64,000 nucleotides of DNA, from contig CM055897.1 of the NCBI GenBank assembly GCA_029582155.1, positions 95,281,582-95,345,581 on the forward strand, written 5' to 3'. The position numbers were made by a program, and so were the translations under genes. Shown one piece after another: positions 5,501-63,185 of the stretch; position 1 is the first letter of the stretch, and the number at the start of each line of letters is the position of its first letter. Source of the stretch: Panopea generosa (Eukaryota > Mollusca > Bivalvia > Adapedonta > Hiatellidae). The notes beneath the pieces are model-generated. The model did no database searches and was not told the DNA's origin. It saw only the letters and a program-made list of their open reading frames with translations.

Positions 5501-6240
5501 GGTGGTGGTGGTGGAGGCGATAATGACAATGGTAGTGTAGGTCGTGATATAGGCGATAATGACAATGGAAGTGGTACTGGTTGTGGTGGTGTCGGTGGTG
5601 GTGGTGGTGATGGTGGTGACGATAATGACAATGGAAGTGGTGATGGTGATGATGACGATGATGACAATGGTTGTGGTGGTGGTGACGATAATGACAATGG
5701 AAGTGGTGGTGGTGATGATGACGGTGATGACAATAGTAGTCGTGGTGGTGATGACGATAATGACAATGGTAGTGGTGGTGGTGATGATGACGATGATGAC
5801 AATGGTAATGTTGGTGGTGATGATGACGATGATGACATTGGAAGTGGTGGTGGTGATGATGACGATGATGACAATGGTAGTCGTGGTGGTGATGACGATA
5901 ATGACAATGGTAGTGGTGGTGGTGATGATGACGATGATGACAATGTTAGTGGTGGTGGTGGTGGTGATGATGACGATGATGACAATGGTAGTGGTGGTTG
6001 TGATGACGATTATGACAACAGAAGTGGTGGTGGTGATGATGACGATGATGACAATGGTAGTGGTTGTGGTGATAACGATGATGACAATGGTAGTGGTGAT
6101 GGTGATGACGATTATGACAATGGTAGTGGTAGTGATGAGGCGATAATAACAATGGTAGTGGTTGTAGTGATGACGATTATGACAATGGTAGTGGTGATGG
6201 TGATGACGATTATGACAATGGTAGTGGTGGTGGGGATGAT
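2560..6240. repeat. 3.7 kb purine-purine-pyrimidine (RRY) triplet minisatellite array
   Basis: Almost every triplet of the + strand is RRY (GAT, GAC, AAT, GGT, AGT). A core such as GATGACAATGGTAGTGGT alternates with GATGATGAC and GGT runs, in units that vary mainly by multiples of three. The + strand is G-rich and nearly free of C except in GAC. Larger duplications are visible: about 4042-4400 is repeated at about 5270-5560. Very long His-, Val/Met- or Pro/Ser-rich reading frames on both strands are products of this composition and do not look like proteins. The RRY frame would read Asp/Asn/Gly/Ser, but it has no start codon and is shifted at each GATGAGACGATAATGAC junction. Confidence 0.9.
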
Positions 6241-6940
6241 GGCAATGTTGAGATGGACATGATCCAAATTGCTCAATGGTTCAAGATCTGCAATTATAAA
6301 CAAAACAATACATACCTTGGCCAGCTTGTTTTTGCTGTTGTCAGTTTTTATAATTACATGGTTTCGTGGGACCTATCAATTTCCAGCTAACAGTATCACG
6401 TCTTCCACAATCTATTCAGACAGACCAGGATCAAACTTTATGTCTGGACCATTCCAACAATTCCTGCATGCACCAGTATCTTTTAATAAAACAAAACAAA
6501 TCAATAGCTTGTTGTACGGAGTCTCAGGATGCTTTAGGAAGATTTCACCAGACATTAAAAAATACGACACGATCATATTGTTTTGACTGTGAACGTGACT
6601 GGTAGGGAGGCACATGTTATTGCCTCTAGGGAGTCTGGTCAAGAAATGCTTGGTTTTAATAAAATTAATAATCATTTTGTGTTTGTGCTCGTGGAGCGTT
6701 AAAACTTTTCAAAGAGAGATTTATTCTGCCGAGACTTGTGAGTATTATAGTTTTTGTGTTGACTGGAAGGAGAGATAGTGTGTATAGATAATATGTTAAT
6801 TGCAAGAGTGACCGATATGCAATTATGCTATTAGATGGGATACATAAGTGCATAAAGGGTCAAGAACAGTATCGTATATAGTGATCGTGTGTACAAACAT
6901 GTACATAACATAGCTAAAGTTGTGTCCCATTATATGACAC
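6241..6940. other. Unique-looking intergenic stretch, no gene supported
   Basis: Short overlapping open frames (for example 6269-6586 on + and 6412-6675 on -) give no recognisable domain and have no splice context. I see no promoter, RNA gene or clear repeat here. Confidence 0.5.
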
Positions 6941-13663: not shown

Positions 13664-13835
13664 TGCTTGATTGCGAAACTTCATATATCAATTTACAATG
13701 CCGATGGAGGGCCTGAAACGCAGACTTAGTTTTCGAAAAAAGAAAAAAGATAAAGTGCCGGAATGTTCAAAACCGCATCAATGGCAAGAAGATGAGAAAA
13801 AAGTGAGGGATGGAACTTGCAGTTTCCAAGTCAGG
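13664..13835 (+). CDS. numb: Numb coding exon 1: N-terminus and start of PTB domain
   Basis: The exon follows the acceptor TTCTATTTTCAG and ends at AGG before the donor GTAGGT. Translation starts at ATG 13698; an in-frame TGA at 13668 rules out an upstream start, and a second ATG two codons later (13704) is an alternative. It codes for residues 1-46. A basic segment ([13 protein letters not shown], residues 7-19) matches the membrane-binding Numb N-terminus, and Ser11 aligns with the aPKC target Ser7 of mammalian NUMB. Next come the family signature [18 protein letters not shown] and the first PTB strand. The exon ends in phase 0. Homology to fly Numb is closest, with extra residues at the very N-terminus. 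aPKC phosphorylation of this segment in other animals releases Numb from the cortex; the same regulation is inferred here. Confidence 0.93.
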
Positions 13836-14931: not shown

Positions 14932-15175
14932 TTTACTCCATAGATACTTGTTTTCCCACACAAATTACAGAAGGCCTTTGAAAACAGTGCAGGAAGAGTT
15001 CAGATTGCTGTAATGAGCAATCTGAACACTTCCTGCACTGTTTTCCACTCTGTCAGTTAATATAAACATAATTCACCCAATAATTCAAAAGCTTTCTATA
15101 TTAGAGGTGTCTAAAGGCGTCTATATTAGAGGTGTCCAAAGGCGTCTATATTAGAGGTGTCCAAAGGCGTTAAAC
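14932..15175 (+). mobile_element. TTAA-type MITE with internal hairpin (family P), 3' end decayed
   Basis: It starts TTTACTCCATAGATAC, like the better preserved copies at 37314 and 52673. It carries the internal palindrome at 14981-15044 and three tandem copies of a ~25 bp unit (TCTATATTAGAGGTGTCCAA). The left TTAACCC boundary is mutated, and the right end is lost after the tandem units. Confidence 0.75.
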
Positions 15176-29450: not shown

Positions 29451-30820
29451 CTCTGATTGTGTGTCAGCCATTCCCCATTGTAGTAGATCTCTGATTGGGA
29501 GAGGAACACGGACAAATAATAATCTGTAGTAATGTAGGATGATTTATCATCTTTTACATATGCTTAAGTTTATGAAAGGTCATAAACCAGTCAATATTAT
29601 TTTCAAAATGGCATTGCAAGTGCAAATTCTACATTTTGCAAGAAACAACAAATTGATTATTTTGAAACACGGAGTCAATGTGGAAAAATATATTGCTAGT
29701 AGTAAATGAGTTCACCTGTAAATTTGTATATGATATTCCGACAAGAAATTAAAGAAAGGCAACATGATGGTCAAAACTGCGTGAACGAGTGAGCCATCCC
29801 TTAGGCCATTCAGGCCTTTGATATCTTTCTGTACTCACACAATTTGCTGTCTGTCTTTTTTTTTGCTCCTTGCCCTTTTTACAGGTCTAGAAAAAAACAC
29901 TATATTTTTCTAATGCTACATGTGAGCCATTATAACATTGTAGTCCTCTTGTCTTTATTATTCTCCACAAGTGATTCAGTGGTTGAGCATGTTATCCTAT
30001 GATATTTCCTTTCTTCAATAAAAAAAATCTTAAGAAGCATGTAGCTCAGTGTGCTAGCCATTTTAGTCTATAAAAGTTGATTAATCTGTGTGAGATCAAT
30101 ATCCCAGTTACAGTTGCTGTCTACCATAGAATACTCCTGCTGTAACTCCAATCTGTGTCAGAGTTCCCACAGGGACAGACGGCCTCCATGATCATTTGCC
30201 ATGCCTCACTGGGAAGTGTTCACATGATCAGTCATTTGACATGGTTTGAAATTTTGTCTGCTGATTCTCATGGGATTGTGAAAAACATGCTCAGTCAGAG
30301 TAGCAGAGTATTAATGTCATCAGCTGCCTGATGCTTCATGCTTCCAACACTGCAGCTCATGACTTTACAATGTGTGTTTTCAATATTGAATATTGAAAAT
30401 TGATGGATATACTGTATCCATAATGACGTTGCTAGTTCAGGCAAGTGTGCCATGCTATCCTCCGCTTTATTAGTCATCAGAATTGGAATGTGGTTTTATT
30501 TTTGTTCCATAGTAGGCTTTCCTTGTAGTCTTTAAAGAATGATAAAAAGATATTGAGATTTCTTAATTTACCTTCCTTCACTGTTTTACTTCATTTATAA
30601 CAACCAAAATTGGACAGAAACATTCAAAAATTTGTACAGCATGATTATATATCAAATGTTTTACAAAAATTGTCTAAGTCCGTGTTGGTACCATCTTTAC
30701 CCTTGTGTTGTCTGCACTCATGTTTAAAGCGTATCCCCTGGTGAAGACTTAGTGTGAGAATTTTTATCTCCTGTGTCTAATAAATTGTTAAGCATATATA
30801 AATTTACCAGTACCATATAT

Positions 30821-31263
30821 TCCCTTATTAATGCGTTACATTTTACAAGGTTTGGGCGTTTATAAAAGATAAAAAAAACGAATTTTTAACAAAAATACAA
30901 TAAAACTGATAAAGCCCTGGAAAAAACCTTAAATCCAGTTTAAATCCCCGAAAAAGTGGTTCAGAATTATTTGAGAGTGAATGAAATAATTGACTTAGGA
31001 TGAAAAAAAAGCTGATGATCTGTATTACTAGTTTTAAACAGCAAATATTGGGAAGTGTTTATTCAACCAAAAGTGGTTAAGTGGTCACCCAATATATAAA
31101 CAATGGTTCCTAAGATGATAAACACTCTGCTAATTGTTGTCTGTGTAACAAAATAATCGATCTGGGAAAGATGGGCGAATACGCACTCAACTCGCATATA
31201 TGTTTTATTTTTTAATTTTCCAGAAAAATAGTGGGGTAAGGAGGGCGTGGGAATAAACGGTAT
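30821..31263. mobile_element. Probable MITE with TACC..TATTCCC ends
   Basis: The left TACCATATATTCCC and right GGGAATAAACGGTA are imperfect inverted repeats about 440 bp apart. The target duplication is uncertain. Confidence 0.45.
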
Positions 31264-34212: not shown

Positions 34213-34287
34213 TACCTTGGCTGTGTCGAGGTGTTCGAGTCAAGAGGTATGCAGGTCTGCGAGGAAGCTGTGAAAACCCTGAAAACA
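34213..34287 (+). CDS. numb: Numb coding exon 2: PTB domain, residues 47-71
   Basis: The exon sits between TCTGTATTTCAG and the strong donor GTAAGT, is 75 bases long, phase 0 at both ends. It reads [20 protein letters not shown] and then KTLKT. This is the second PTB strand and the first helix, nearly identical to fly Numb. Length and boundaries match the 25-codon vertebrate exon exactly. In vertebrates an alternative 33-base exon follows at this junction to give the PTB-insert isoform. I see no convincing equivalent in the 977-base intron here. Confidence 0.95.
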
Positions 34288-35264: not shown

Positions 35265-35342
35265 CAATGTAAAGGAAAGTACCAGAGAGCTATATTATAT
35301 GTTTCTGGGGATGCACTGAGAGTGGTGGATGAAATCAGTAAG
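35265..35342 (+). CDS. numb: Numb coding exon 3: PTB domain, residues 72-97
   Basis: Flanked by TTTGTACATTACAG and donor GTCAGT, it has 78 bases in phase 0. It reads QCKGKYQRAILYVSGDALRV and then VDEISK, the central PTB strands (family consensus LHVSGDGLRVVDD). The donor GTCAGT is slightly weaker than consensus. All residues expected for the fold are present. Confidence 0.95.
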
Positions 35343-37041: not shown

Positions 37042-37182
37042 AGTATGATAGTAGACCAGACCATAGAGAAAGTGTCGTTCTGTGCCCCTGATCGCAACCA
37101 TGAGAAAGGATTCGCTTACATCTGTCGTGATGGGACCACGCGGAGGTGGATGTGCCATGGTTTTCTTGCTGTTAAAGAATCG
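37042..37182 (+). CDS. numb: Numb coding exon 4: PTB core, residues 98-144
   Basis: Between TTTAATATACAG and GTAAGG, 141 bases, phase 0. It codes for the most conserved Numb segment: [17 protein letters not shown], the [19 protein letters not shown] strand pair, and LAVKES. These strands form the groove that binds NPxY or related peptides on partners such as LNX and NAK/AAK-type kinases in other animals. The exon ends exactly before the loop leading to the C-terminal PTB helix. It is directly compatible with the next conserved exon at 53881 (KES then GERLSH), and also with the two candidate microexons in the following intron. Confidence 0.96.
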
Positions 37183-37313
37183 GTAAGGAGACGTCTTGAT
37201 TAGATTGTAGTGTTTTTCTTGGTCTCAATATTTACAATCGTAGTCTGTTTTCTTTGCACCACACCTATGGCCACTGATAGAGATGCTTAAATATGTTCAT
37301 TAGTTCAACTTAA

Positions 37314-37523
37314 CCCTTTACTCCATAGATACGCATTTTCCTGCACCAATCACAGAAGGCCTTTGAAAAAAGTGTAGGAAGAGTTCAGATTGCTTGTAAC
37401 GAGCAATCTGAACACTTCCTGCACTATTTTCCACTCTGTCAGTTAATATAAACATAATTCACCCAATAATTCAAAAGCCTTCTGTATTAGAGGTGTCCAA
37501 AGGTGTCTATATGAAGTAAAGGG
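37314..37523 (+). mobile_element. TTAA-type MITE with internal hairpin (family P)
   Basis: The left boundary is TTAA then CCCTTTACTCCATAG; the right is ATGAAGTAAAGGG then TTAC (a mutated TTAA). The TIR and TTAA target fit piggyBac-type transposition. The internal hairpin is at about 37365-37430. Confidence 0.85.
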
Positions 37524-38053
37524 TTACCAAAAGCATAGTCTACATGTATCTATGAAATCCATGAATGAAAGTATTTCATTTAATAGTATCAGTCTTGTTA
37601 CAGACTTCAAACAGCAGTCCTTTCATGTTTTGGGGGAAAAGAAAATTCTAAATTCATCAACAGCATGTCACTGAATTGAATGTGAAAGCTTAGAATAGTA
37701 TGTAACCTAAGTTGAAGCGAAAACTAACAAAGTGAATGTTCAAAGCTTTAGCAAATTGGAAAATAAAGAATAACACTGTTAAGGGCATGTTGTAACCATT
37801 GATTTTCAGATATTACTATAATATTTCATATCCAGTGTCTCTTATTCCCGTTATATAAGAAAAGTTCACTTAAAAAAAAAGGTTTTTTTTTTTTTGTTTT
37901 TTTAAAAAAAAAATTCTCAGAAAAAAAGATAGTTTTAATTTGGAAGTAGTCATTTATCTGCCTCTGCTTAATATGGTAAAAAAGCCCTGTGATACTGAAG
38001 TATATCTGAAAATTGAGAGTAACATATGACTGATGTGTACCGTAGTATATTAA

Positions 38054-38252
38054 AGGGAATATTTCAGGATTTTTCAAAATTTTAAAATTGGTTTAAAACT
38101 TTGTTTTCTAATATATACTCACTGACCCCGTATTGCCACAAGTATTGCCACAAGGATATTTATTTAAACATTCAAAAAATAATATATATAGAAAAGGGCT
38201 TTTCCAACTTAAGTTTTTAATTTTTAAGACATTTATAGTTTCATCACTCCCT
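38054..38252. mobile_element. TTAA-type MITE (family S), short form
   Basis: Flanked by TTAA on both sides (38050-38053, 38253-38256). Ends are AGGGAATATTTCAGGATTTT and TCATCACTCCCT. It is a 199 bp deletion form of the 526 bp copy at 59008-59533; a further relative without clear ends lies at about 45500-45740. Confidence 0.75.
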
Positions 38253-39139
38253 TTAAAACTGAACAGCACATCATTGGAGAAAGTTTGTTAACTGGGAACA
38301 ATTTTTTCATTGAAGATTGTGAACAAACTGTAGAGTACCTTTAAAGCGAAGCCCACCCTGTTCTTTTTTATCATATCCTTTAACAATTTTAACAAAAACT
38401 GAAACAGAATTTTTTTCTAAAATTGGCAGACTAAAATATAGCCTATAACCATAGATTCACAATATTGACCTGTAGCTTACACAGTCATTCATCTGTCGTT
38501 TGAGTTTGTTCAGATACTCCACGATCAGTCGTAATGATAAAACTGCTTTACATACTGCTGTCTACCAACATACTGCTGTCTACCACTTCAGTCTCAGCTT
38601 GTAGAAAAATATCTTATCTAACCATTTTTATGTGTCTCTTGGGCAATTGTGATTTACTGTTATTTACTGAAATGGCAGAAGTTATTATGGAATTTTATTA
38701 GGAAATGCTTTTGTCAATTTATTATTGATGTGTTAAAGATTTCAAACAGAAAATTACCTTAGAAGTAGAAAACACACTTTAAAGGGACACATGACAACAT
38801 TAAAATCAGTTTAGTCCCATTCAAGCATCGAATCAATATCATCACACCATTATGGAGTTTTACTCTTTGAAACCTAAAATTAAAGAAATTAGTAGAAGTT
38901 TTCATAAAAGAAATGTTGTGCGCTAGTTTTTAAAATATGCATAAAGATATCTTTAAGTTACTTTCCAGAGTTTGGCACCTTTCAAAAATGATTAAGACTA
39001 AGAAGACATTATGGGATATTTTAGTTTCATATTTTATTTTGCATTATATAAATGATATATGTTCAGGATATGAAAATTTATTAAAGTTGCCATGTATCTC
39101 TTTATTGAGTTATAAATGATTATCAGAAGCAGATAAGTC

Positions 39140-39390
39140 AGGCCCAGTTCACTCAGTTGATAGCATGTGAGACTATCAATCCAGGGGTCCAGAGTTCAGA
39201 TCCCAACCCAGTCACAGTCTTTCTGATGATTCGTATACAAAATTGCATCTCATTATCATTTGTCAGTTATTTGCGGAGATGGGTTTGCTCAAGTTGCTGG
39301 TTAACTTTCCAGGATACAAGGAAAGGAAGAGTTGTTAGGTTAACTGGTCATCTGTGAGTCTTCATTGGCATTAAAAATGATGCTTCAAAC
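39140..39390 (+). mobile_element. SINE family A
   Basis: Head: GGCCCAGTTCACTCAGTTGA, then GGGGTCCAGAGTTCAGATCC. Body: TCTCATTATCATTTGTC, GCGGAGATGGGTTTGCTC, GGTTAACTTTCCAGGAT, ending in ATGATGCTTCAAACAAACA. This uninterrupted copy shows what the split copies at 16250 and 22230 looked like before insertion. Confidence 0.8.
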
Positions 39391-41120
39391 AAACAGAAGC
39401 AGATAAAACTGCCCAATTTAGGACTTAATGGTCTTCGTCTGCCATTGATCATATCCAGAATATTTATAAATGAGTTTATTCAAAACTGAATATAAAAATG
39501 CAGGTCACGGTGGTTCACAGGTGGTTACCTTTCATCCATAACCTGCAAACTGTAATCCAATATGACTTCTGTTTGTTGAAAATGAAAAAAAAAGAAGCAA
39601 TTTTTGGTGTCTTGAGTTAAACTTAAGTTACATACATATCCAATTTGTGTGAATTTGATTTTACAACATATTCTAATTAAATAAATTTTGTCACATGTCA
39701 CTAACCAGAAACAAACCTTCACTGCACTTAATGTAAAAGAAATTGTTGTAAGTTAAAACAAAATTAAAGATAAGTATTTTTTTAAAGATCTTGATCATAT
39801 TTGAGTTCCTCTGTCTCATACACTCTCATACACTTGTCTGTCTACTCATCTTATACTATTGATGTTGTGTTAGTAATTAATATCAGTCAATCAGCTGTCT
39901 CTGTATGGTCGTGTTCTATTATATAATATGCTTGTCTTTTAGTTGCCTTAATTGATAATCGATTTAGTTACATGTTATTCTGAATTCATGCCATTGTGTT
40001 GATGTCTTGTACCATGTTTTGACATTGTAAATTTGCTAATTTTGAATATTTGTTTTGCTTGCTATATTATTTTTTATAATTCAAAGATTTTATTTTTAAT
40101 ACGGTCCTTGTTTTATTTAAAAACAGTATCAGGATTCTTTTTAATTCTGTAACACATTTTTTCTAATGATGTAAACATGGGTTAAAGCCGAATTTGATCT
40201 TTGTGTCTTTAAGATGCCAAAGTGAAACAGTTTATTTACATATTCATTGCATTAAAGCCATTTACCAAACATTATGTTCTGATAATGGGTTTAATTGGGC
40301 TCTTACATTTGTAGTTGTTACAAAATGACAGTCCACTATGAGTAATGTTTACAGGTCATCAGTGTTAATAAGGGCTATTGCTGAAGGCAAATTTCAAACA
40401 TCATAATCATGTAAAATATTGTGAGTTCTACCGCTACCAGTGTCGCGTTAAGAAGATGTGATACTGGCTGTAGAGAGGACTAAGACTGGTTGATCCTGTT
40501 TTAGTTTGTGGATGGGGGAGGGGGTTATCAGATCTCATTAAAAATCATATTCTGGGTAATAGCATATCAAATTAAGAACAAGTTAATTACTGGACTCAAG
40601 TGGACATTATGATTATATTGTATGATTGAAAGATTATTGTTCAAATTAATTATTTACATGTAATGTACATGTGAAGGTGTACATAAACAACCACCATAGA
40701 TATGTAATAAAAAACTTATAAACTGGGAATTCTCCAGAATGTGCATCTGTATTTTATATCAGTTATTGTCTCACCTTTACGAAACTCTGAAATATTGATG
40801 AACTTTCAGCTTTCCTACAATAGCTCTTGTTTGCATAGATCTCCATTCCATCATGACCAGGCATACCTGCTTTAAAGATGGTGTTTATACAGAATCAAAG
40901 CAGCTTAGATATTTTTTTATCTTTGAATTGGGTTTGATTTTCCACATATAACGAAACTGCTGTTGTTTGTATTGATTAAAGAATTATTAGCATCCATAAT
41001 TTATATTTTAAGTTTTAAATGTATGTAATAATATGTATTATATTAACCCTGCCAGTACCATTGCTTTGAGTTGGGTTTTTTTACAGTTTTTACGTCTTAG
41101 TTGCATTTTGTTTTTCCCAG

Positions 41121-41147
41121 AAATTTTGGCGATCACAAAAAGTTAAG
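41121..41147 (+). CDS. numb: Candidate 27-nt microexon of Numb (PTB insert), unproven
   Basis: The segment lies between a strong acceptor tract (TTGCATTTTGTTTTTCCCAG) and a donor AAG/GTAACC. It is 27 bases long, phase 0, and open in the Numb frame (KFWRSQKVK). A TGC triplet about 18 bases upstream of the acceptor resembles the UGC element used by the nSR100/SRRM4 factor for neural microexons, though TGC is common by chance. Inclusion would add nine mostly basic residues between residues 144 and 145, in the loop before the C-terminal PTB helix. The constitutive joining of flanking exons already matches Numb from other animals, so this would be an alternative exon. No homologue is known to me. 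Confidence 0.35.
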
Positions 41148-41608
41148 GTAACCATTATATAATTTATTAACAAATGTTATACACAAAGTAACAGAGCATG
41201 TGTTTGTAATTGCTATTATATTGCTGTATTCTGTAGATTAACCCACATATCATAAATTTCATATACTTTATTCTATAGTTGGATGGTAGATTTCTGCACG
41301 ATTCCATGTTGGCGCTGCACAAGTCTCTCTCTAGTTCTTAAAGAGCGATATGTTTATGCGAAATATATATATCATATAATTGTGTCGTGTATACATGTAC
41401 TACATATAATGACTTACAAACTATTTATTTATTTGGTGTGATCAGAAATGGGTTATGTTTGTATTTATCATGTTCAATGGCTTTTGTATACAGTTTGTTA
41501 TCTCTGATGAGGGTTGACAATATCTAATACATTTTGTAAACAGTGGTGGTAGTAAGTGGTAATAAGAGTTTGAAGGAATTAATTTAATTTAACTCATTAA
41601 CAGTATTA

Positions 41609-41705
41609 CAATGACCATCGTCATCATCGTCATCATGTTTATCGTCAACATTGTCATCATTGTTATCATCGTCATCATTGTTACCATTGTCAATGTCATG
41701 ATCTA
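41609..41705 (-). repeat. Short RRY triplet tract on the minus strand
   Basis: The + strand reads CATCGTCATCATCGTCATCA and similar; its complement is made of the same GATGATGACGATGATGAC-type triplets as the array at 2560-6240. It is about 95 bp. Confidence 0.8.
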
Positions 41706-41934
41706 ATTTTAGTGTATTGTGTGATATTTTATTCATTGCCATCCATTTTAGCTGTTGGCTAAAATGTCAAGTGTTGAAATCTGACACCTTTTTTTTTTTT
41801 TCAATTCTCTCTGCTGGTTTATTACAATCAAATTTGAATCTTCCACATAAGAAAAAAAAAATGTTACATGATTTGTACATTGATTAATTTTAAAATTGGC
41901 ATTAGTGAGTCTTGGAGACTTGCATACAATATAA

Positions 41935-42167
41935 CAGTGTTTTTTTTTTACTTTTTGGGAAAGGGGTCGGTGCCTTTTGAAGAGGGGAAAATGAGCATTT
42001 GGGGGAATTTTAAAAGGTCGTAAAATAAAATAAAAAAACGATAAATCAAAAAGATATATATTTAAAACAGTTAACAGGTCAACATCCATGTTCTTCATGA
42101 ATTTTTCTGACAGTTGTTGGGATGGGGCCGAATTTCGCTGAATATTTGGGGTAAAAAAAAACCACTG
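41935..42167. mobile_element. MITE with CAGTG/CACTG ends (family Q)
   Basis: It starts CAGTGTTTTTTTTTTAC and ends GTAAAAAAAAACCACTG, flanked by TATAA on both sides (41930-41934, 42168-42172). It is a second copy of the element at 20526-20840, with an internal deletion. Confidence 0.75.
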
Positions 42168-42898
42168 TATAACAGTGAGTGCCAGCTGAATTTAATGGGT
42201 CCAGGTCAGTTAGCAAAATTTGATTAAAGACAAAGTAAGAATCAGTTCTGTACTGGGTTTTCATATTAACTGTAGATCTGACAGTTTGATGGTCTATTAT
42301 CGTCTGTCTGTGTCATCATATGTGTTTGGGAAACAGCAAAGACAGGAGTGTGACAAGGGTCCAAGTACTGTACCCAGAACCACACACCCTCCTATTCCTA
42401 TTTATGTTCATCAATTATATATATATATATATGCTTCACGTAAAATCTTCCAACTTGATATATATTTTCAAGTGACTTTTTTTTTTAATTTCTTATTTCG
42501 AACAGTTAATGGTCGCCTCAATTAGTTTATTTATTATTTTTTCATCTTTTGTGTCCTTCAAAATTAACATCAGTTTTCTTAAAAATATACTTTCATAGTT
42601 CATACATAATAATGTTCTATGCATAAACCTAAAACATTCAGTTATTGCAAGAACCATAATTAGCTTCGCAATTTGGAAAAGGCGCTGCAATTAAAGCTGC
42701 ATAACCAGTAAATTCTACCCTTTTATTTCAATAAAAGAATGTGTCTAGATCATCATTGGTGCAAAATACCGTTGTTTATCATCTAAAACATGAGTTTAAA
42801 CTCGCCAGTATTGCCAATGTTTGCATTAGACTGACCCGTGGAATAATATAGATGATTCAGAAAATATGATACCAGTTATATCCGTAAACAATCTTGTA

Positions 42899-42975
42899 CA
42901 TTCCTGCACAGCGTAGTGGTTGTATCATTCTGTGGATTATGAATCCGGCAATCCTGGTTCAAATTCTGTGACAAG
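42899..42975 (+). repeat. tRNA-like SINE head remnant
   Basis: CACAGCGTAGTGGTTGTATC resembles an A box and ATCCTGGTTCAAATTCTG a B box at proper spacing. No tail was identified. Confidence 0.45.
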
Positions 42976-44934
42976 AATTATGGGTGTTTTTTTTTAATTT
43001 CTCTAGTAATATTTTTTTTTTCTGCAATGCTCCATAAACGGCTTCTCAAATACCCAAAAGATGTGTTCAAACAAAATGGAATAAATGTTTGTCCATATAT
43101 GCATTTATATCTAGAAGGATGGGGGAATTGGTCAAGTATATACGATTTAATCGAACATTTTACGGTAATTTCTATCAAGGTAGAAGCCAATTTGCATATT
43201 AGAATAACTGGTAAATATAGATTTAAAGCACTAATTATTCAAGTTTAAGAGAGGTGTTAGCCATTATAAATGCATCTAAGGCCATGAGAATTCACAAAAA
43301 TGTTTGTCATTCATGAACAAGTTTCTTTCTTTCTTTATTAAAGAAATATCTAATGTACAATTTGAACATTATGCTGTCTTTTGGACAGTTTTACATGCAT
43401 ATTAAAATAAACCAATTTAACCAGATTTGTTCAATCATTTACCTTATATATGATATTGATATAATCCTTTGCAGATTTACTTCAAAATTCATTGTGTTGA
43501 CCAAATTTTCACTTTTTGATCTGACATTTTATTTGTACTTGCGTTTTTTTTGAACATTGCATCCTCAGAAATTGTTAGGTTCACATCAGCTTTTTCTCCA
43601 CTTATTTACTGTGCTTTACAATGTATCTTCATTTAAATGACTGAAGTTTCCATAGTTTATAGTTTCCAAAACTGTATTTTTTTTTTTTTAAATTGATCGG
43701 GTTGGATTGTTTTTCTTTAGTAGTAGTATTGATTCTGTAAATTAATCACCATCATGTCAAAAGTGTGTTTTTTATGAAGGAAATGTCTCCCAATTTGTCT
43801 TTTAAGACCATGAGAGTGTAAAAAGAGTGTAACATTTTGGAACATCACCCCCATCTCACTCAAGTCCCTCTTACAGGTGCTACTATGCCTAAACACCTGT
43901 TTGATCTTGACCAAAATGTCAGAATGTTTATAAGCATAAAAGCTGGAGCAAATATTTAAGTCTGCACAAGCGTACCAGGAATCGCAATCATGAAGTTGTA
44001 GAAAATCACAAATATTTGCCTTATAAAAACCACCTTGCCACTCACAACTAAATTTAGGCAGAATGTTTGTAGGCATGTAAGCACTGACAATCACAACATT
44101 GTTTCAACCAGGTTTGAAAATTGCTCTTTAATGATTGAAAAACATATTTTTATTTTGAACACCTCAGCACCTTCATAATTATTTCATCCAATCCAGACTG
44201 AACATGGTCGGAATATTTAAAAGCATGATAGTTTGGATGATTACTTGAGTCTGCCATGAAAGAGTTGTTGCATTTGATTAATTGTAAAATGCTGATTTTT
44301 GTCTTGTTAACACTAACACATTCAGATCCAATCTTGAGCATGTCTGTTAAGAATGTATCCATCAAGACAGTTGATAGGTTGCTGTTACTATAAATAGAAC
44401 ACTTTTGAATGATGATTTCTGCAAAACTGTAATAAATCAAATACACTTATTTGAAATGATGGCATTATTTTGAGTTAAAATCGACTAATACAGGTGGTTA
44501 TTGTATAATTTATGTAACAGACAAATCTGCTGTCATGCTAAAACAGTAGGTTCCATCCAAAAATAAGATGAGTTGTATTGGATTTATACACATCAGAGCT
44601 CGTGTTCCTTCCTTTGATTATTATTTGCATCCATCGTGTTGAATTATTAGGATTGCCATTGCTGAAAGAAGAAATGGTTTTTAACAGTGCTGGAACAATA
44701 GGCACTCAACTCTATCTATATTGTAAAACAGGGCATGAAATTCAATTATTTGTGATTTTGGCCTTACAGTTATACGATAGGGTGGTACAGGCGATATAGG
44801 ACCTCTTTTAGCACACTTTGTTGAGATCCAAGTTTGATTAATTCACAGTGGCCCATTCACAGTAGTTCTGTCTTGGTGTTAAATGTTACAAGAACAAATT
44901 AACTGCCTTCTGTGGAACACAACAGCATGTTAAG

Positions 44935-45415
44935 GAGTTGAGTTAAAGGATACTCACTTGATTTGAAGTAACAAAGGAGCTGAATTGAAAGGTTAAGCAT
45001 TTGATTTAAGTAGCAAAGGGGCCGAGTTAATGGTTAATCTTGATTAAAGTAAAATAGAGGCCAAGTTGAAGGTTACTTACTTGATTTTAAGTAATAAAGG
45101 GGCTGAATTGAAGTGTAGTCACTTGATTTGTGTCAAAATGGGCTGTGTTAATGGCTAATCATTTGATTTAAGTAATGATGGGGCTGAGTTAATGGCTAAT
45201 CAATTGATTTTAAGTAAAAAAAAAAGGGGCCAAGGTAATGGCTAATCACTTGATTTAAGTAAAAAAAAAAAGGTGGGGGAGGGGGGGGGGGGGGGGGGCA
45301 AGGTAATGGTTAATCACTTGATTTAAGTAAAAAGGGACCGAGTTCAAGGTTAATCACTTGATTTTAAGTAATCAAGGGGCTGAGTTGAAGGTTAATCACT
45401 TGATTTAATTAAAAA
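44935..45415 (+). repeat. Degenerate 40-55 bp tandem array
   Basis: About ten copies of a unit like GGGGCTGAGTTAATGGCTAA followed by TCACTTGATTTAAGTAAAAA. One junction has expanded into a G run (about 45273-45298). Unit length varies mainly in the A/G tract between copies. Confidence 0.85.
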
Positions 45416-46088
45416 AGTTTCTTAAGATCACAGTCACTTTGTCGACCCAGGCTATCTTTTGTAGACTATTATCTTTCATAATGGTGGTAGACCTTTAAAG
45501 GTAGTATATCAGGTTTTTTCAAACAATTTAAAATTGGCAAAAATATCTTTTTCCTATATATCATGCTTAGATAATCTCACTGAGCCCTAATATTGCCATA
45601 GGAATATCTGATGTTTTAAAAAATACCAAACTAATGTACAGAAAAAGAATTTTCTTAATTAGACTTAGCACCTAGGTTAGACTAAAAAAATCCTGTTTAA
45701 ATTGCATACCTTGTATGACATACAAGTGGGCTCCATAACTTAATTTGAATTTGGTTTTACCCTTCATGAATCATGAATGATCTTGGAATGAGTCAGAATG
45801 ACAAGGTGAAGGTCACGAAGCAGTGCATGCATGATATTTATTGAAATTCCACGTCACGACTCGCAGTTTGGCAGATTTGAAATTCCAAATTATTCATATT
45901 TTGGATCATTAGCTGGTTTATATTCATTTTACTCTTTTTATATATTTAAAAAGATTGTTCCTGATATACACCCTGTTAGTAAATAATTCTGTTTTGGAAT
46001 GGTTTGCTTAAATATCAAATTTATTGGGATTGAATTTTAGAAAATGGTGCTAGTACTTCTGGTGGCATTGTACTCATAGATATATTAA

Positions 46089-46578
46089 AGCAACACATCC
46101 ACGTTTAAATTTTTTAAAAAAATTTTCAATTGAGTTGTGAGCACATTTCCCATACATAAATATATGGTCAGTGAGCTGTATATATGCTAACAAACACTAT
46201 CCAGAACGCTTTAGAATTATAAAAAAAGATGTTCAAATTATAAAGCGTGACAAACGCTTTATAAATTATTTTTAAATTGCCGAGGATTCCAACTTGGCTT
46301 CAAATTGAATTATGCGAGTCGTATTAAAAAAACTTCACGTTTTAGTGCGTAGTGTACTTTACCTGCCTTGAAAGTCATTTTGACAATTTTTTTTGACTCG
46401 GGTGAGTTACAAGCTTGTTTTATAAAGTGTTAGTCACGCATTATAATTTGGGCATCAGTTTGTTCGGGATTGTGTTTATATGCTCATATACAGCTAATTG
46501 ATCATATGTTTGTATGGGAAATGTGCTCATAACTCAATTAATTTTTTTTTTTAGAAGTTCAAACGTGGATGTGTTGCT
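46089..46578 (+). mobile_element. TTAA-type MITE (family T), full length 490 bp
   Basis: Flanked by TTAA (46085-46088, 46579-46582). TIRs are AGCAACACATCCACGTTT and AACGTGGATGTGTTGCT. The inverted symmetry extends inward (GTTGTGAGCACATTTCCCAT against ATGGGAAATGTGCTCATAAC), so the whole element is a long imperfect palindrome. Confidence 0.9.
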
Positions 46579-46892
46579 TTAATTAAATTTTAATTCTCCG
46601 AAAACTGTTGCTAGTCTAGTTGTGTTATGTAATCATTAGTTAGTATTAAAAAATGATAAGGTGAAGCAGAATGTTGTAATTACTTTTAAAAATCCCTTTA
46701 TATTTCTTTCAAGGAAGAATGAGACTTAATTTATATTCTTATAGAATTGTTAATTTGGGGCAATGGAATAAGTATATTCTTGGTGATTCAAAGAATTATT
46801 AATCCTAATCCAATACAAGAAAAACATTTATTGATCTGAATATTATATATTCGTAGAACTGTTCTTGATACATGCTATGATTTCTGTTTTAG

Positions 46893-46931
46893 CGGAAGAA
46901 GAAAGATGGACAAACCATTAATTCATCTCTG
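46893..46931 (+). CDS. numb: Candidate 39-nt microexon of Numb (PTB insert), unproven
   Basis: It follows CATGCTATGATTTCTGTTTTAG and precedes the donor GTATTG, which is weak. Thirteen codons, phase 0, open in the Numb frame: RKKKDGQTINSSL. Base composition is less AT-rich than the surroundings. It lies in the same intron as the 27-nt candidate and would join it in frame (in either single or double inclusion) ahead of GERLSH. A TGC triplet lies about 20 bases upstream of the acceptor. The alternative is a chance pair of splice-like sites in a 16.7 kb intron. Confidence 0.35.
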
Positions 46932-47034
46932 GTATTGTTTTAAGAAATAGTTGTTATTTTCTCTCTAAAACTTTTTGTTTCAGTAGGTTAGGGTTATATA
47001 AATATTTATTGGAAGTTTTTAGATGAAATATTAA

Positions 47035-47711
47035 TACAGTAGAATCTCATTATGTTGAAGTCGCTGTTGCTGAAAGTTCAGTTGTGTTGATGTTTTCCTA
47101 ATATTCTGATTATCGACTTTTTCCTTTTTTGTTTATGTAGTTTTTTGTCCATTTAAAGCCAGGTTTTATGTGTCGATATTTCCTGGGTTGCTGGCAGTTG
47201 TTTTCACACCTAAACCAGTCTGTTTATCTTGATTGGGCAGTAAGCATCAAAGACTCGCCGCCACAATGATTTCTCACCTTGCTGATCAGGTCGGCGCCAC
47301 AGCATAAGGATCTAATTTTGGTGTAATGTAAACACACTTAACAGATTTGAGTGGATGTAATGTACAGTTTAAAAAAGAATTTCCTTGGTATAAAACAAAA
47401 AAATAGATACTCGGAAGAATCTTGTTTTATGCTTATATGTAACAAGTACAAACATACATGTATATGTAAAAACGTCAACTTGCAATGTATTTAGCAATAA
47501 TGAAATACAAACAAAAACACACAACAAATAAAAACAACATTGATTGATTAATAATTATTTTATTGCATAAAAAGTCAAGTACCCACCCCATTAGCTCAAA
47601 ATTTAGCTGACCTCTCAGAAAGAGTCCATGTTCCCATGTATCATATTTACTTTTTTCAATTGGAAGTTATTTTTATGTTCCTATGGATATCAACATTGAG
47701 ATTCTACTGTA
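47035..47711. mobile_element. Pogo/Tigger-like MITE with TA target sites
   Basis: The ends CAGTAGAATCTCATTATGTT and ATCAACATTGAGATTCTACTG are inverted repeats bordered by TA. This end type is typical of pogo-class Tc1/mariner elements. It is 677 bp with no transposase frame. Confidence 0.8.
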
Positions 47712-48334
47712 TTGTAAAGTGGAAATATGGTTTATATGGTTACTGTTCATTGTAATGTATATCATGTATAGTTTTGTGTGGCTCTATTGAACATAGTCAA
47801 CACATACACATCACTTTGTCTTCTTCAACATTAACTTTATTTACTTCTTTATGTTATATATTTTCACTATTAAATAAAATACATCATGTTTTAGCAGCAA
47901 GAGCCGACCATTATGATTATCAAGGTCAAAATCTTGGTTTAAAGGGATTTATTCCATCTGAAAATCAAATTTGTAAATTTTTAGTATCAAAACTCCATAC
48001 TAACTATAGAGAAATATAGCGTTTTAATGCAAGATAAATTTTAAAACTGTTGTAGTCATAGTTAATTGCGATTATCACATGAAAGAACCAAAATATGAGG
48101 GTAATAGTATTGGTGTAAGTGTCAAGGTCATTTGTTAAAAAAGTTAAATTGACATGACCAGCTTGCCAAGATAACTATATTGACCTAGATTACCTGTATA
48201 ATAGAATCTATCTTTCATATAAAAAACTGAGCATTGTATCTATACATTCTTTTATATCAATTGTTTTGATAAAATATTTAACAAGATGGCTGCCAGATAC
48301 CTTCTTAATGTTGGGTAGTTGCAGTAAATTGTGT

Positions 48335-48505
48335 ATATGGCGGACTGGAATCTGAGTAAAACCACCGTCCTTCTGCAAGTAACTGGCAGACTTTCTCACA
48401 ATGATTTTGGAGTAAGCAGGACTTGAACCTCCAACGTTATCGGTGAGAGGTAAGTGATCTTGAGACAGCACCTTTAATACCATTAGGCGGGGAGGACCCA
48501 TATAT
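48335..48505 (-). repeat. tRNA-derived SINE head, minus strand
   Basis: The minus strand reads GGGTCCTCCCCGCCTAATGG (A-box region) and GTTGGAGGTTCAAGTCCTGC (B box), then about 100 bp of unfamiliar body. Confidence 0.5.
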
Positions 48506-51500
48506 TTATTATAAAACTTCAGTTGATAACTCGGTGAACAACAAACTAACCTTTTGTAGGGTAGACCTACACATCTCCTATAGTGTAGTGAGTGGAAGAG
48601 TTCACGTCTTTACTGCCAGTAAAATATATTGCCCTATAATCAAATGTAGATGGTATAAACATTAAACAATGCCATGTTCCAAATAAAGCAAAATGATTAC
48701 CAAACACACCAGCTCTGTTTCAATGATGGTTAGCAATTTTGTGATGGTAGCCTGCTTGTGAAAATCAGAAAAAAAGTTTGGCAATCTATAAGATATCTAT
48801 TATTGTTACAGTGATTTTATATAAATTCATTCCAGTTATTGTAGCTATTTATAAAACATATCTTCAGATTCTTTGAAGGTCATGGTATTTTTTTTAGTTT
48901 AAACATCGTATTATTTCTTTTATAAATTTTGAAATAAACAAAGAATTTACAATATCAAGAAAATGTCTACATAATGAAAATAATAAAATGTATATACTTG
49001 TATATGCTTTTACCAGAACTAAATTTGGTTATTTTAAATGATTAATAATTCCAAACTTAAACAGATAAGCAATCTAGTCTCCTGTAAATCTATAGTAAAC
49101 CTTTAGGGTCGAGTACAAGTTCACAGTTACCTACCATACTTATATTTTATATGGACACTAAAACGTTCTTAAACGGCACATGAGGGAAAAGAGTTAAAAT
49201 AGGATCTAGAGTCAGATATGCTTTGTGCAATTTGGTCATTAAATGTACAAACTCACAAAATCATGAACAAAAATATTGAAATTGAAATGTGTTTTGTTTT
49301 GTATGTATATGTATTATTTACATGTACAGGTGACGAGAGTTTGGGTATATTTTATACTTGTAATAATTCAGATAAATCACATGTACTTTATATAAAAAAG
49401 ATGAATTAACACTTTAGTATTTTATCATACTTTTAGTATTTAGTTGGAGGACATATTTGTAAGTTTTAGCTAACAGATCCTGTCGGTGATACTGTTTGCA
49501 TTCAAGGTATCCACATTTGCCTGTGAGATTTTGTTGCCTGGTAATGGTGTACCTTGTATGTACTCAGTCAGTTAGTGTTAACAGTTCTTTAAATGGTAAT
49601 AAAAGGGTCTAAACCCAAAATGAACTAGTCTATAAATAGCTTTGCAGTAATTTAAGGATAAGGATAAAGATAACTGTGAACGCGTATTATACCCTCTGTG
49701 GATATGAAACTTTGTCCTATTCCTGATGTTTCTAATTTCTTTGCCATTGTTTTTCTTTCATGGCTGCTGGCTGGGCTTAACAGACGGTATGGTGCATGCT
49801 TTATTTGTCCATGGACAATATAGTAGTATATTAGTCTTCATAGATCATGTTGATTCAAAATAAACAAACTTGTCAACTTACAAACTGTAAGAAATGCAAA
49901 TAAACAATCAGTATTAAATACCGCCTCTTCTTTATGGGTCTACAAAAGATGGGCTGCTTAAAAAAGTTAAAAAAGGATAGAAAGATATGAATGCAGCACT
50001 AGTGCTGCGTTCCATTCAGTTAAAACGTTTTGTTATCTTATTTCAATGGTAGGAACGTATGTCACATGCACCTGCTAGTTGAGCTCATTTCCGTGTAACG
50101 TTTACTTTTAGAATGAAGCGCAATTGTCTTGAGGTAATCTTGAATTTTATAGGTCGCACTGATCCATATATATCAGTGAATTAGATTCCCCTAATTCCCA
50201 GAGGGTCAGTGGGAACTATTAAATTTGCACATGTACGCACAATTGAAATGAAAAATCATCTACCTCTAACCAGCTTTTGAAGCAACATTCTGGCACTGTA
50301 TTTAGCAGGTGTGCGCGACATAGGTTCTCAGCATTAAATTTATTTTGCTGGACTCTTGTAGCACACACTACTTGATAAAATGAAGGAACTGTGGTACTGA
50401 ACACAGCCCAGATCTTTGTAGCATAATGTAAATATTTAAAGTTAGATTGTTTTATATGTTGCACATGACACCACAACAGAATTTGCAAAATTCAGCCTTG
50501 TTGGTGAAAGGTCAAAATATGGTCAGTGAATAAAAATAACAAATCACTGCCACACCTTTCCAGTCACAATATTTACAGAGATAGTACCATCTCTGGTTTC
50601 ATTGATAGTAGATCTATAAACAAGTGATATACTATATCTGTTCACATACCAGCATAGGTACATACTTATGTCACATACAATTGGAACAGATGGTTTCATA
50701 TAATTTCCCCATTAACTGTGGATGATTGATGTAATATATTCTATAATATTGATGGGACAAAAAATGATTGCAAAACAAAGTTTTTACTTTTACTATGGAT
50801 AACTTTAATTTAAGGAGTGGTAGTTTGTTTATGGCTGATCATGTTTTCTAGAGGACTAATATACATTTTAGGCTACGTTTATGTTGATATTAATTGATTT
50901 GTTAGATGTTTTATTATTGACACCTAATTTGGGAGTTGTCCAGCACATTCATCCAATACTTTGTTTCACTGTTTAATTTTATGTTGCTTTATGTATTTAG
51001 TATATGATCATGATATAATGTGACCTTGTAATGCTTTCTTTTATGTGTCCTTTAACATCCTATGTTCACATAATTTGTGTCTTCCATACTTAGCCTGATT
51101 TCTGCTTCCAATCAGCTTAGGCCATAACAAATTTATTCATATATTTTGTTTTAAATTTGTTTGAAAAAGGGATGAGGAGTGCTATTTTGTTTTTCAGATA
51201 TCAAAAAGTGTCATATAAACCACCAAATGAATAAAAATCATTTTAAGACAGTAGAATGATTTTAAACACAGAGATAGAAACCTGTGGCTGATAGACCAAC
51301 TGTCCTTTCAACTTTTTATGTACATTTGTCATGAAGTTGTTTTTTGAATACCACTGATACAGCACGAAAAATATCCCACTCAGAAGGCCCTGGCCTCATT
51401 CCCCCAAAGTGAAGCGAGTACCCTCTTTTGATAAACTATCTTTAATAAATGCACACAAAAATTGAATACCTCTGTAAGGAAGAATATAGCTTGGAGCAAT

Positions 51501-52672
51501 AGACAAATGCCTTTTTTTAATGCCAAAACACTTGTCTGCAACAGAATTAACAATATCAGTGGTCATTAAAACCTAGTCTTCTGTGTGACTTGCTTTGTTT
51601 CTATCTAGTTATATGGCTTTGTAGACCTTCCATTTCTGTGACATCACGGCTTCATTATTTATTCAAATGCTTATTAAATAATCTTATGTTGCTATGGAAA
51701 CTAGATGTGTTTTTTCATAAATCACCATTTTTATTGTTTCATAGTTACGCACAGGCAGACTTCTTACTTAAGTCTAGGAATTAAATATTTTATTTATTTA
51801 TGTCATATAGATATGTAAATAATATCTGTTACGGAATAGGCAGATTCAGTGGAGTGCTTTATTGGCATCGATTGGCAAAATTCTTTGCTAATTAATCTCC
51901 ATGGAAACAGCAATTTGATTAGGGATGATTATTCATATATTAATTTTGTACAACTTCCTTAATAAAATAAAAAAAACAATATGTAAACATTTGAAAAAAA
52001 GAGGAGTTTTAACACAATTATCATATATTAAAATTCAGACAGTAACTGCTATAGGTAATTATAATGATAATTGTTGATATTTAAAGTCATTTATCATTAA
52101 GTGAATATAAGACATTCTTTCCCCCAAAAGCCTCCATCCATATTAACTTTGTGTGCTGTATCTGTTTATCTAGTGCTTGCCTAGTGTACTAACATGGTGT
52201 CGGCATACTGTGGCTGTTGAAGGACTTAAGATTTCTTAGTTTTAATGTTGAATCAATACACTTACTTTACTTAACTTGTTGTCTTACCTCAACAGAAAAT
52301 ATAACAATTAGAATATGAGGTTTCCTCTGTTTTTAACTTCATTAATCTTTGAATAAAGCAGTATTAGTATTCCCACTGCTGTCAGTGTCTGCATTGAGGT
52401 GTGCTACTAATTTGTTCATTAGTGTGCAATTCTAACTTCTAGATGTTTCTTATGTGTGTGACACTGTACACACAATTTTTGTCTCGCCTTTTCAAAAAAT
52501 AAAGACATGAATGTTACTTTTCTGATGAGGATATCGGTTTTAATAATTCAAAGTTATTTTTGGGTTAGGCTCTCAGAATCTGTTTGACATAGAGTCACCA
52601 AATTTGTGTTATGGGTTATGATACTCAAAACCATACAGCCCCTTTTTTTTCAGGCGACCTTGACTTCTTTAA

Positions 52673-52894
52673 CCCTTTACTTCATATAGACACCTTTGGA
52701 CACCTCTAATATTGAAAGCATTAATTCACCACATATCAGCAATGGGTGAATTATGTTTATATGAACTGACAGAGTGGAAAACAGTGCAGGAAGTGTTCAG
52801 ATTGCTCGTTACGAGCAATCTGAACTCTTCCTGCACTGTTTTCAAAGGCCTTCTGTGATTGGTGCAGGAAAGCCTGTATCTATGGAGTAAAGGG
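52673..52894 (-). mobile_element. TTAA-type MITE with internal hairpin (family P), complete
   Basis: TTAA (52669-52672) and TTAA (52895-52898) flank CCCTTTACTTCATATAG at one end and TATGGAGTAAAGGG at the other. It carries the best-preserved internal palindrome (about 52775-52842): AACAGTGCAGGAAGTGTTCA...and its complement, with a loop of a few bases. Orientation is opposite to the other copies and antisense to Numb. Confidence 0.9.
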
Positions 52895-53880
52895 TTAAAT
52901 GTCTGTATCAAATACTGATTGTTGATGTATAGTCAATTTTTAAAATCTTTAAAAGCAATATCATTCATACAAATAGAAGAAGCATAGTTACAAATGACTG
53001 TTTTATGTGAATGTAGTGTGAGTTATTTATCTACTGCATGTGTAAGTAAGTAATTAAAACCACTTGCCGAAGCTTTGTAATACTGAAGTTTTATTTATTC
53101 AATTGATCCAGTTAAGTTTGATTTAAATATAGGCAATACCATAGGACTGACTATCTTTTACTTTGGTTAATTAGCAAAGGCTATTAAATATTTGCTTAAT
53201 TACTAAACTGTCCATAAAAATTCTCTAAATGTGAATCCATTATATAACCTAAGCCATGGTTTCCATAGCAACATTCAGCTTCGTGTTATATTGATGCAGT
53301 ATTGAGTTCTTGGTAGTTTATAGTGTATGTCTTTTTGTCATGATAATGGGCTGTATGAAACTAATCAGTTTTAATGGGCCAGGCAGGATTGTGAAGTAGG
53401 ACAGTATAGCAGGGCCATGCAAAGAAAGCGTGCTTCTCTCTTTAGTTATCATATAAGATGATTTAATTAAAAAATCAATGAAACCTTTTTTTATGATTTT
53501 TTGAGTAGCAGCACAGTCATGGTTTCTATATTGCCTGATGACAGTTTTTAACGATGTGTAAAAGGGAGATAACCTTAATGTAAAATAAAATGTTTAAAGA
53601 TGTATAAAAGGGAGATAACCTTATTGCAATGAAAGTTTTTCCAGTAAAGTATTTGACAAGTAGCCCCTTATACACCAAAATTGGAGTTCTATATTGATCT
53701 TATACAAGTTTAGTGTATTGCAGTAGAACTTTTAAAAATGTTCTTAAAGTTTCTTTAAATGTCTAAATATTGTTTAAACTAGGTAGCCATTTAAAATTAT
53801 TATAAAACACATGCTTATTTTGGTTTGATTGAATAGGTTAGTGTAGTCTAATCCGATGTGTATCCTTTTTTAACCACTAG

Positions 53881-54079
53881 GGAGAGAGACTGAGTCATGC
53901 TGTTGGATGTGCCTTTGCTATCTGCCTTGAGCGTAAACAGAAGCGGGATAAGGAGTCGGGAGCCAGCAATGTCACTGTGACATACAGCCAGGATAGAACA
54001 ACATTTGAGCGCACTGGATCATTCAGACAGACGACCATTACAGAAAGAATTACAGACCCCCAGAGTGCAATAGTAGCAG
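53881..54079 (+). CDS. numb: Numb coding exon 5: C-terminal PTB helix and linker, residues 145-210
   Basis: It follows TTTTTTAACCACTAG and ends GCAG before GTGAGT, 199 bases, entering in phase 0 and leaving in phase 1. It starts [20 protein letters not shown], the amphipathic helix that closes the PTB fold, then KRDKESG. The next conserved block is [17 protein letters not shown], matching the Numb-family linker with a conserved Ser in a basic-SF context. The exon ends in DPQSAIVA. Length and content agree with fly and vertebrate Numb. Confidence 0.95.
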
Positions 54080-55682: not shown

Positions 55683-55940
55683 CTCTTACTCCATAGATAC
55701 GCAATTTCTCGCACCAATCACAGAAGGCCTTTGAAAACAGTGCAGGAAGAGTTCAGACTGCTCATAATGAGCAATCTGAACATTTCCTGCACTGTTTTCC
55801 ACTCTGTCAGTTAATATAAACATAATTCACCCAATAGTTCAAAAGCTTTCTATATTAGAGGTGTCCAAAGGCGTCTATATTAGAGGTGTCCAAAGGCATC
55901 TATATTAGAGGTGTTTAAAGGCGTCTATATTAGAGGTGAT
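55683..55940 (+). mobile_element. TTAA-type MITE with internal hairpin (family P), expanded 25 bp units
   Basis: It is preceded by TTAA (55679-55682) and starts CTCTTACTCCATAGATAC. The internal palindrome is at about 55733-55798. Four tandem ~25 bp units (GTCTATATTAGAGGTGTCCA-like) replace the right end, where other copies have one or two. Confidence 0.8.
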
Positions 55941-61778: not shown

Positions 61779-61994
61779 AACCAGTCCCTGTGAAAATGGT
61801 AGATAACCCCCATGCAGTACAGCGTCCCCACGCCACTCAAAACCTGCTCCTGAGGCAGGGCTCATTCCGCGGATTCTCCAAACTGCAGGAGGCATCTTCA
61901 CCATTTAAGAGGACATTGTCACTAAGGTTGAATGAGCTACCTTCTACACTACAACGGCAAAATGCTGTAGAGATATCACCTCCAAAATCTGCAG
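61779..61994 (+). CDS. numb: Numb coding exon 6: start of C-terminal tail, residues 211-282
   Basis: It follows GCATGTTATAG and ends GCAG before GTATGT, 216 bases, phase 1 at both ends. After a variable start it reads [18 protein letters not shown], then [20 protein letters not shown]. These are the two signature phosphorylation motifs of Numb; Ser239 (RQGSF) and Ser258 (RTLSL) correspond to mammalian Ser276 and Ser295, targets of aPKC and CaM kinases and 14-3-3 docking sites. The proline-rich region and the C-terminal NPF/DPF motifs must lie on later exons outside the window. Confidence 0.95.
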
Positions 61995-62165: not shown

Positions 62166-63185
62166 TAATTGTTGACACAGTTATGTCTACACACCTCACA
62201 TAGTTGTTGACACAGTTATGTCTACACATGTCACACAGTCGTTGTCACAGTTATGTCTACACTCCTCACACAGTTGTTGTCACAGTTATGTCTACACCCC
62301 TCACACAGTTGTTGACACAGTTCTGTCTACACACCTCACACAGTTGTTGACACAGTTATGTCTACACACCTCACACAGTTGTTGACACAGTTATGTCTAC
62401 ACTCCTCACACAGTTGCTGACACAGTTATGTCTACACACCTCACACAGTTGTTGTCACAGTTATGTCTACACACGTCACACAGTCGTTGTCACAGTTATG
62501 TCTACACTCCTCACACAGTTGTTGTCACAGTTATGTCTACACCCCTCACACAGTTGTTGACACAGTTCTGTCTACACACCTCACACAGTTGTTGACACAG
62601 TTATGTCTACACACCTCACACAGTTGTTTTCACAGTTATGTCCACTCCTCACACAGTTGTTGTCACAGTTATGTCTACACACCTCACACAGTTGTTGTCA
62701 CAGTTATGTCTACACACCTCACACAGTTGTTGACACAGTAATGTCTACACACCTCACACAGTTGTTTTCACAGTTATGTCTACACACCTCACACAGTTGT
62801 TGACACAGTTATGTCTACACACCTCACACAGTTGTTGTCACAGTTATGTCTACACACCTCACACAGTTGTTGACACAGTTATGTCTACACACGTCACACA
62901 GTTGTTGACACAGTTATGTCTACACTCCTCACACAGTTGTTGTCACAGTTATGTCTACACACCTCACACAGTTGTTGTCATAGTTATGTCTACATTCCTC
63001 ACACAGTTGTTGTCACAGTTATGTCTACACACCTCACACAGTTGTTGACACAGTTATGTCTACACATGTCACACAGTTGTTGTCACAGTTATGTCTACAC
63101 TCCTCACACAGTTGTTGTCACAGTTATGTCTACACACCTCACACAGTTGTTGACACAGTTATGTCTACTCTACACATGTCACACA
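62166..63185 (+). repeat. 35 bp minisatellite, about 29 copies
   Basis: The unit is GTTGTTGACACAGTTATGTC plus TACACACCTCACACA. Variants alternate GTTGAC/GTTGTC and ACACACCTC/ACACTCCTC/ACACATGTC. Copies are highly similar, and longer blocks of variant order recur (compare 62225-62340 with 62470-62585), showing recent block duplication. Short open frames across it only reflect the lack of stops in the repeat. Confidence 0.95.

Follow-up and report, generated by a model that had tools for sequence, protein, structure and literature searches.

We identified a 27-nt candidate microexon (segment 1) in a phase 0 intron of 16,698 nt (37183-53880) of the Panopea generosa Numb gene, within the part encoding the PTB domain. 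The segment lies at the joint between two coding exons, keeps the reading frame, and, under a general splice model, has the highest-scoring in-frame pair of splice sites of its size class in the intron; in our estimate, the chances that it is a real microexon are about even. A second segment of 39 nt (segment 2) lies further downstream in the same intron. The full reading, in which segment 1 is a real, alternatively included Numb microexon and segment 2 is a chance pseudo-exon, falls somewhat short of an even chance, and we hold it level with the explanation that both segments are pseudo-exons.

The window, i.e., the whole stretch of 64,000 nucleotides analyzed here, carries the Numb gene on its plus strand. 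We found six coding exons with an open joined reading frame (Table 1), and the gene extends past the last of them. The joined exons encode a PTB domain (Pfam PID, E 1.1e-27) followed by part of a NumbF domain (Pfam, E 2.1e-23), which is the arrangement by which the Numb family is recognized. Their best six PDB matches carry the names Numb or Numb-like; the match gives molecule names only, and we take the organisms of the matched chains to be fly, human, and mouse.

Table 1. Numb exons and intronic segments in the window
Feature	Position	Strand	Basis or score
First coding exon found (MPMEGLKRR...SFQVR)	13698..13835	+	Exon joining
Exon preceding the chordate exon 3 position	34213..34287	+	Exon joining; position from excerpts of PMC6778778
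Exon QCKGKYQRAILYVSGDALRVVDEISK	35265..35342	+	Exon joining
Exon SMIVDQ...FLAVKES, upstream neighbor of the segments, phase 0 at its 3' end, counterpart of human Ex5	37042..37182	+	PDB alignments, frame check
Segment 1, candidate microexon KFWRSQKVK, 27 nt	41121..41147	+	Acceptor 8.89 bits, donor 3.12 bits, frame kept
Segment 2, RKKKDGQTINSSL, 39 nt, most likely a chance pseudo-exon	46893..46931	+	Acceptor 2.23 bits, donor -1.62 bits
Exon with C-terminal PTB helix, downstream neighbor of the segments, corresponds to human Ex6	53881..54079	+	PDB alignments, frame check
Exon with NumbF domain, 3' end CTGCAG/GTATG	61779..61994	+	Pfam NumbF, E 2.1e-23

Several repeats were observed in the window. 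At 2561-6241, a 36-bp unit built of GTG/GAT triplets recurs in about 105 diverged copies over 3.7 kb, and a 35-bp minisatellite (28.6 copies, 93% match) occupies 62169-63168, shortly 3' of the NumbF exon. The 25-bp unit TCTATATTAGAGGTGTCCAAAGGCG is repeated in two short arrays, and its core GAGGTGTCCAA is found elsewhere, resembling a dispersed repeat (15095-15170, 35201, 37490, 52696 on the minus strand, and 55849-55938). By eye, we also noted an imperfect inverted repeat, GTGTAGGAAGAGTTCAGATTGCT ... AGCAATCTGAACACTTCCTGCAC, at ~37370-37430 near the 5' end of the 16.7-kb intron. That the two segments belong to a repeat copied within the window was rejected: a self-comparison of 40900-41400 and 46700-47100 against the window gave two weak matches, neither of which overlaps either segment.

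Segment 1 is preceded by ...GTTTTTCCCAG and has the 3' boundary GTTAAG/GTAACC; segment 2 is preceded by ...TTTCTGTTTTAG and has the 3' boundary TCTCTG/GTATTG. Both have the formal properties of a microexon, being at most 51 nt long, a multiple of three, and open, with AG before and GT after. When segment 1, segment 2, or both are added to the six-exon frame, the number of stops is 0, and the residues of either fall between KES and GERLSHAV in the PTB domain. An earlier note on this DNA had proposed two frame-preserving segments at these positions, inserted before the C-terminal PTB helix of Numb; the sequence confirms the segments, and Pfam, the PDB alignments, and the frame check agree with the gene, the intron, and the insertion point that it named. 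The segment 1 nonapeptide forms a clean nine-residue insertion in the five displayed alignments to solved Numb-family PTB domains. A nested in-frame donor within segment 1 would yield a 21-nt alternative (41121-41141, KFWRSQK).

Splice sites were scored with a general model, consisting of frequency tables of general metazoan splice sites and not trained on Panopea generosa, and with an own-gene model derived from Numb itself (five acceptors, five donors), which is overfitted to those sites. Under the general model, Numb's own four internal acceptors score 1.4 to 4.1 bits and its five donors 2.9 to 8.5 bits. Ranks refer to the 499 in-frame open AG..GT pairs of 3-51 nt in the 16.7-kb intron, and the controls were 200 dinucleotide shuffles of the intron and Markov simulations of order 1, 3, and 5 with 200 runs each.

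Under the general model, the segment 1 acceptor is the best among the 873 AGs of the intron, and the strength of its donor, which has a C at +5, is reached by 16 of the 1033 GTs. The sum of the two, 12.01 bits, ranks first of the 499 pairs, none of the others reaching it; the second rank falls to the 21-nt alternative, which combines the same acceptor with the nested donor and scores 4.98 bits, and the best pair independent of these has 3.43 bits. Segment 1 also ranks first when pairs of up to 300 nt are admitted. The own-gene model places it fourth of 499; under that model it is also outscored by 12 other pairs in the window, counting both strands and leaving aside pairs whose start coincides with that of a known exon.

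The explanation that both segments are pseudo-exons, i.e., chance AG/GT pairs in a long T-rich intron that are never spliced into mRNA, is likewise a little less probable than an even chance. It is favored by the simulated introns, 1-10% of which reach the segment 1 level (2 of the 200 dinucleotide shuffles, and 5%, 5%, and 10% of the Markov runs of order 1, 3, and 5, respectively), but segment 1 is an outlier within its own intron under the general model, and multiplying the separate rates of acceptors and donors at its level gives an expectation of 0.016 pairs per intron. The strength of its acceptor alone is unsurprising because shuffled introns contain a mean of 1.03 equally strong ones; the unusual part is therefore its combination with an in-frame donor. 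The real sequence provides a further argument for chance, since, over both strands of the window together, one other in-frame pair reaches the segment 1 sum. This 12-nt pair at 31224-31235 (KNSG, 13.05 bits) lies between QVR and YLG in the intron at 13836-34212, where an insertion would break a PTB strand, and by simple arithmetic it corresponds to ~0.15 in-frame pairs per 16.7 kb. The same intron holds an out-of-frame pair at 29885-29921 (37 nt, 14.37 bits). Both pairs served as a gauge of chance and could equally be unannotated exons. Depending on the control, the chance probability of the rank of segment 1 is ~0.01 to 0.15, which is suggestive, not proof.

Segment 2 is at the level that chance predicts, as would be expected if both segments were pseudo-exons. 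The number of in-frame open pairs passing its two thresholds is five in the real intron, segments 1 and 2 among them, compared with an average of 5.9 (s.d. 2.5) in shuffled introns, so that it does not rise above chance; its rank is 15 of 499 under the general model and 73 of 499 under the own-gene model. The earlier note had presented both segments as microexon candidates, which is partly borne out for segment 1, a notable candidate, but not for segment 2. It had rightly called the donor GTATTG weak (-1.62 bits), and its warning of chance occurrence in a long intron was apt. We consider it very improbable that segment 2 is a real microexon.

Segment 1 may also be an exon that is seldom included or serves as a decoy, assisting or delaying the removal of the 16.7-kb intron, with its peptide being irrelevant. 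Its strong acceptor, paired with a donor of moderate strength, and the length of the intron would suit this role, as would two nested in-frame donors giving 21 or 27 nt. However, such an exon needs neither a kept frame nor openness, yet segment 1 has both, and we regard a decoy as improbable.

UGC triplets near both acceptors had been described in the earlier note as reminiscent of neural microexon control. TGC indeed starts at -19 from the acceptor of segment 1 and at -20 from that of segment 2, but it is common in the intron, occurring within 25 nt at 179 of the 873 AGs and at 20 of the 59 stronger acceptors. According to excerpts of PMC8797185, eMIC exons have a long AG exclusion zone, and the eMIC targets of flies combine weak acceptors with short introns on either side. 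Segment 1 resembles the neural microexons of the eMIC (Srrm3/4, Srrm234) in its short length and the UGC upstream of its acceptor. It differs in that its nearest upstream AG is just 20 nt away (36 nt for segment 2) and that UGC is frequent in its intron; unlike the fly targets, it has a strong acceptor and flanking intron parts of 3.9 and 12.7 kb. Neither segment combines UGC enrichment near the acceptor with a long AG exclusion zone. Because TGC is frequent near AGs and segment 1 lacks such a zone, the UGC argument is unsupported, and we rejected these motifs as pointers to neural control. A reading of both segments as microexons governed by neural UGC-type control would draw on the frame kept alone or together and on the paired TGC positions, but is scarcely credible given these features of segment 1, the frequency of TGC near AGs, and the noise-level scores of segment 2. 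A GCATG, which we take to be an RBFOX-type motif, lies 48 nt downstream of the segment 1 donor and carries little weight because GCATG has a density of 0.72 per kb in the intron.

The peptide KFWRSQKVK has a net charge of +4 and two aromatics. Its positive charge per residue, a comparison chosen after seeing the peptide, was matched by 5 of 1199 controls, which were the open AG..GT segments of 21-39 nt in the window. Placing the peptide at its own site lowered the Pfam PID score from 98.9 bits without an insert to 88.2 bits (a cost of 10.7), whereas placing it at the chordate exon 3 site raised the score to 107.2 bits (a gain of 8.3). At 13 further places in the PTB domain (15 in all), the scores ranged from 83.8 to 105.6 bits, and for 9 of the 14 other places the cost was smaller than at its own site. 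These costs show no special tolerance of the site and led us to reject the idea that PTB domains naturally vary in length there. The segment 2 peptide scored 85.5 bits at the KES/GERLSHAV site. The insertion site adjoins a functional element since the available text of PMC6778778 assigns the canonical NPxY site to strand 5 together with the C-terminal helix.

Scans of bacterial/archaeal and of viral contigs for relatives of the Numb PTB exons gave 53 peptide-pattern stretches each, none of which was confirmed, and a back-translated KFWRSQKVK pattern with AG and GT had 0 matches in the same two sets. KFWRSQK did not occur in a full-text literature search, and the insert was not reported among the listed literature matches concerning microexons in Numb or in molluscs and inserts in PTB domains, a coverage that mostly leaves out subscription papers.

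The closest comparison is with exon 3 of chordate NUMB, an alternative exon of 33-39 nt within the PTB domain. In excerpts of PMC6778778, it is reported to be absent from the invertebrates examined there, including Lottia, and is described as an innovation of chordates through which NUMB acquired new partners. The earlier note's remark about a different PTB insert in vertebrate NUMB agrees with that text. The portions of PMC5800818 at hand describe the exon 3 insert as basic and aromatic, place it between helix 2 and strand 2, and report that it binds the acidic domain of MDM2; binding to PIP2 liposomes and direction of NUMB to the plasma membrane are reported in parts of PMC13248759 and PMC11889595. 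The candidate segment 1 is likewise short, frame-preserving, and basic-aromatic, and lies in the PTB domain of the same gene, but in the Numb structure alignments it stands before the C-terminal helix. It does not belong to the exon 3 family because its position differs. Its relationship to exon 3 was also rejected by sequence: the best match of KFWRSQKVK to the human exon 3 peptide was equaled or bettered by 66 of the 1199 controls. By analogy, segment 1 could nevertheless work like chordate exon 3.

Microexons inside PTB domains have other precedents. In the sections available, vertebrate APBB1-3 and tensins carry them (PMC4317164), the 6-nt microexon of APBB1 strengthens partner binding (PMC8911335), and mini-exon 9 of Fe65 is described (PMC8304848). 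Segment 1 would share their location within a PTB domain; unlike it, the APBB (6 nt) and tensin microexons lie in a beta-turn and have cDNA support, whereas segment 1 has been seen only as genomic sequence. Its splice signals would fit the strong sites reported for mammalian microexons (excerpts of PMC8911335).

If segment 1 is used in RNA in some tissue, as we infer it may be, the effect on the protein would be as follows. Inclusion would place the nine residues where the last strand of the PTB domain meets the C-terminal helix, and skipping would leave a standard PTB domain. The insert would most likely act as a flexible basic-aromatic loop that could, by analogy with exon 3, add binding to acidic lipids or acidic partners, including binding at the membrane. 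It may also shift the start of the helix lining the NPxY groove and could thereby alter the affinity for NPxY peptides.

The reading of segment 1 as a microexon is favored by its outlier sum, its intact frame, its position at an exon joint, the precedents of PTB microexons, its charge, and the absence of a window repeat. It is weakened by the 5-10% of Markov runs reaching its level, the higher score of 31224-31235, its rank of 4 of 499 under the own-gene model, the 10.7-bit cost, the C at +5 of the donor, and the short AG zone. More broadly, an invertebrate lineage may have independently gained a basic-aromatic microexon at the start of the C-terminal helix of the Numb PTB domain, convergent with exon 3 and able to move Numb from the cytosol to the membrane and back or to change its partners, a proposal that we consider unlikely. 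If true, splicing would have tuned the Numb adaptor more than once, with a second independent microexon in its PTB domain, and the gene would offer a natural experiment for learning what an insertion at the helix that lines the groove does to a PTB domain.
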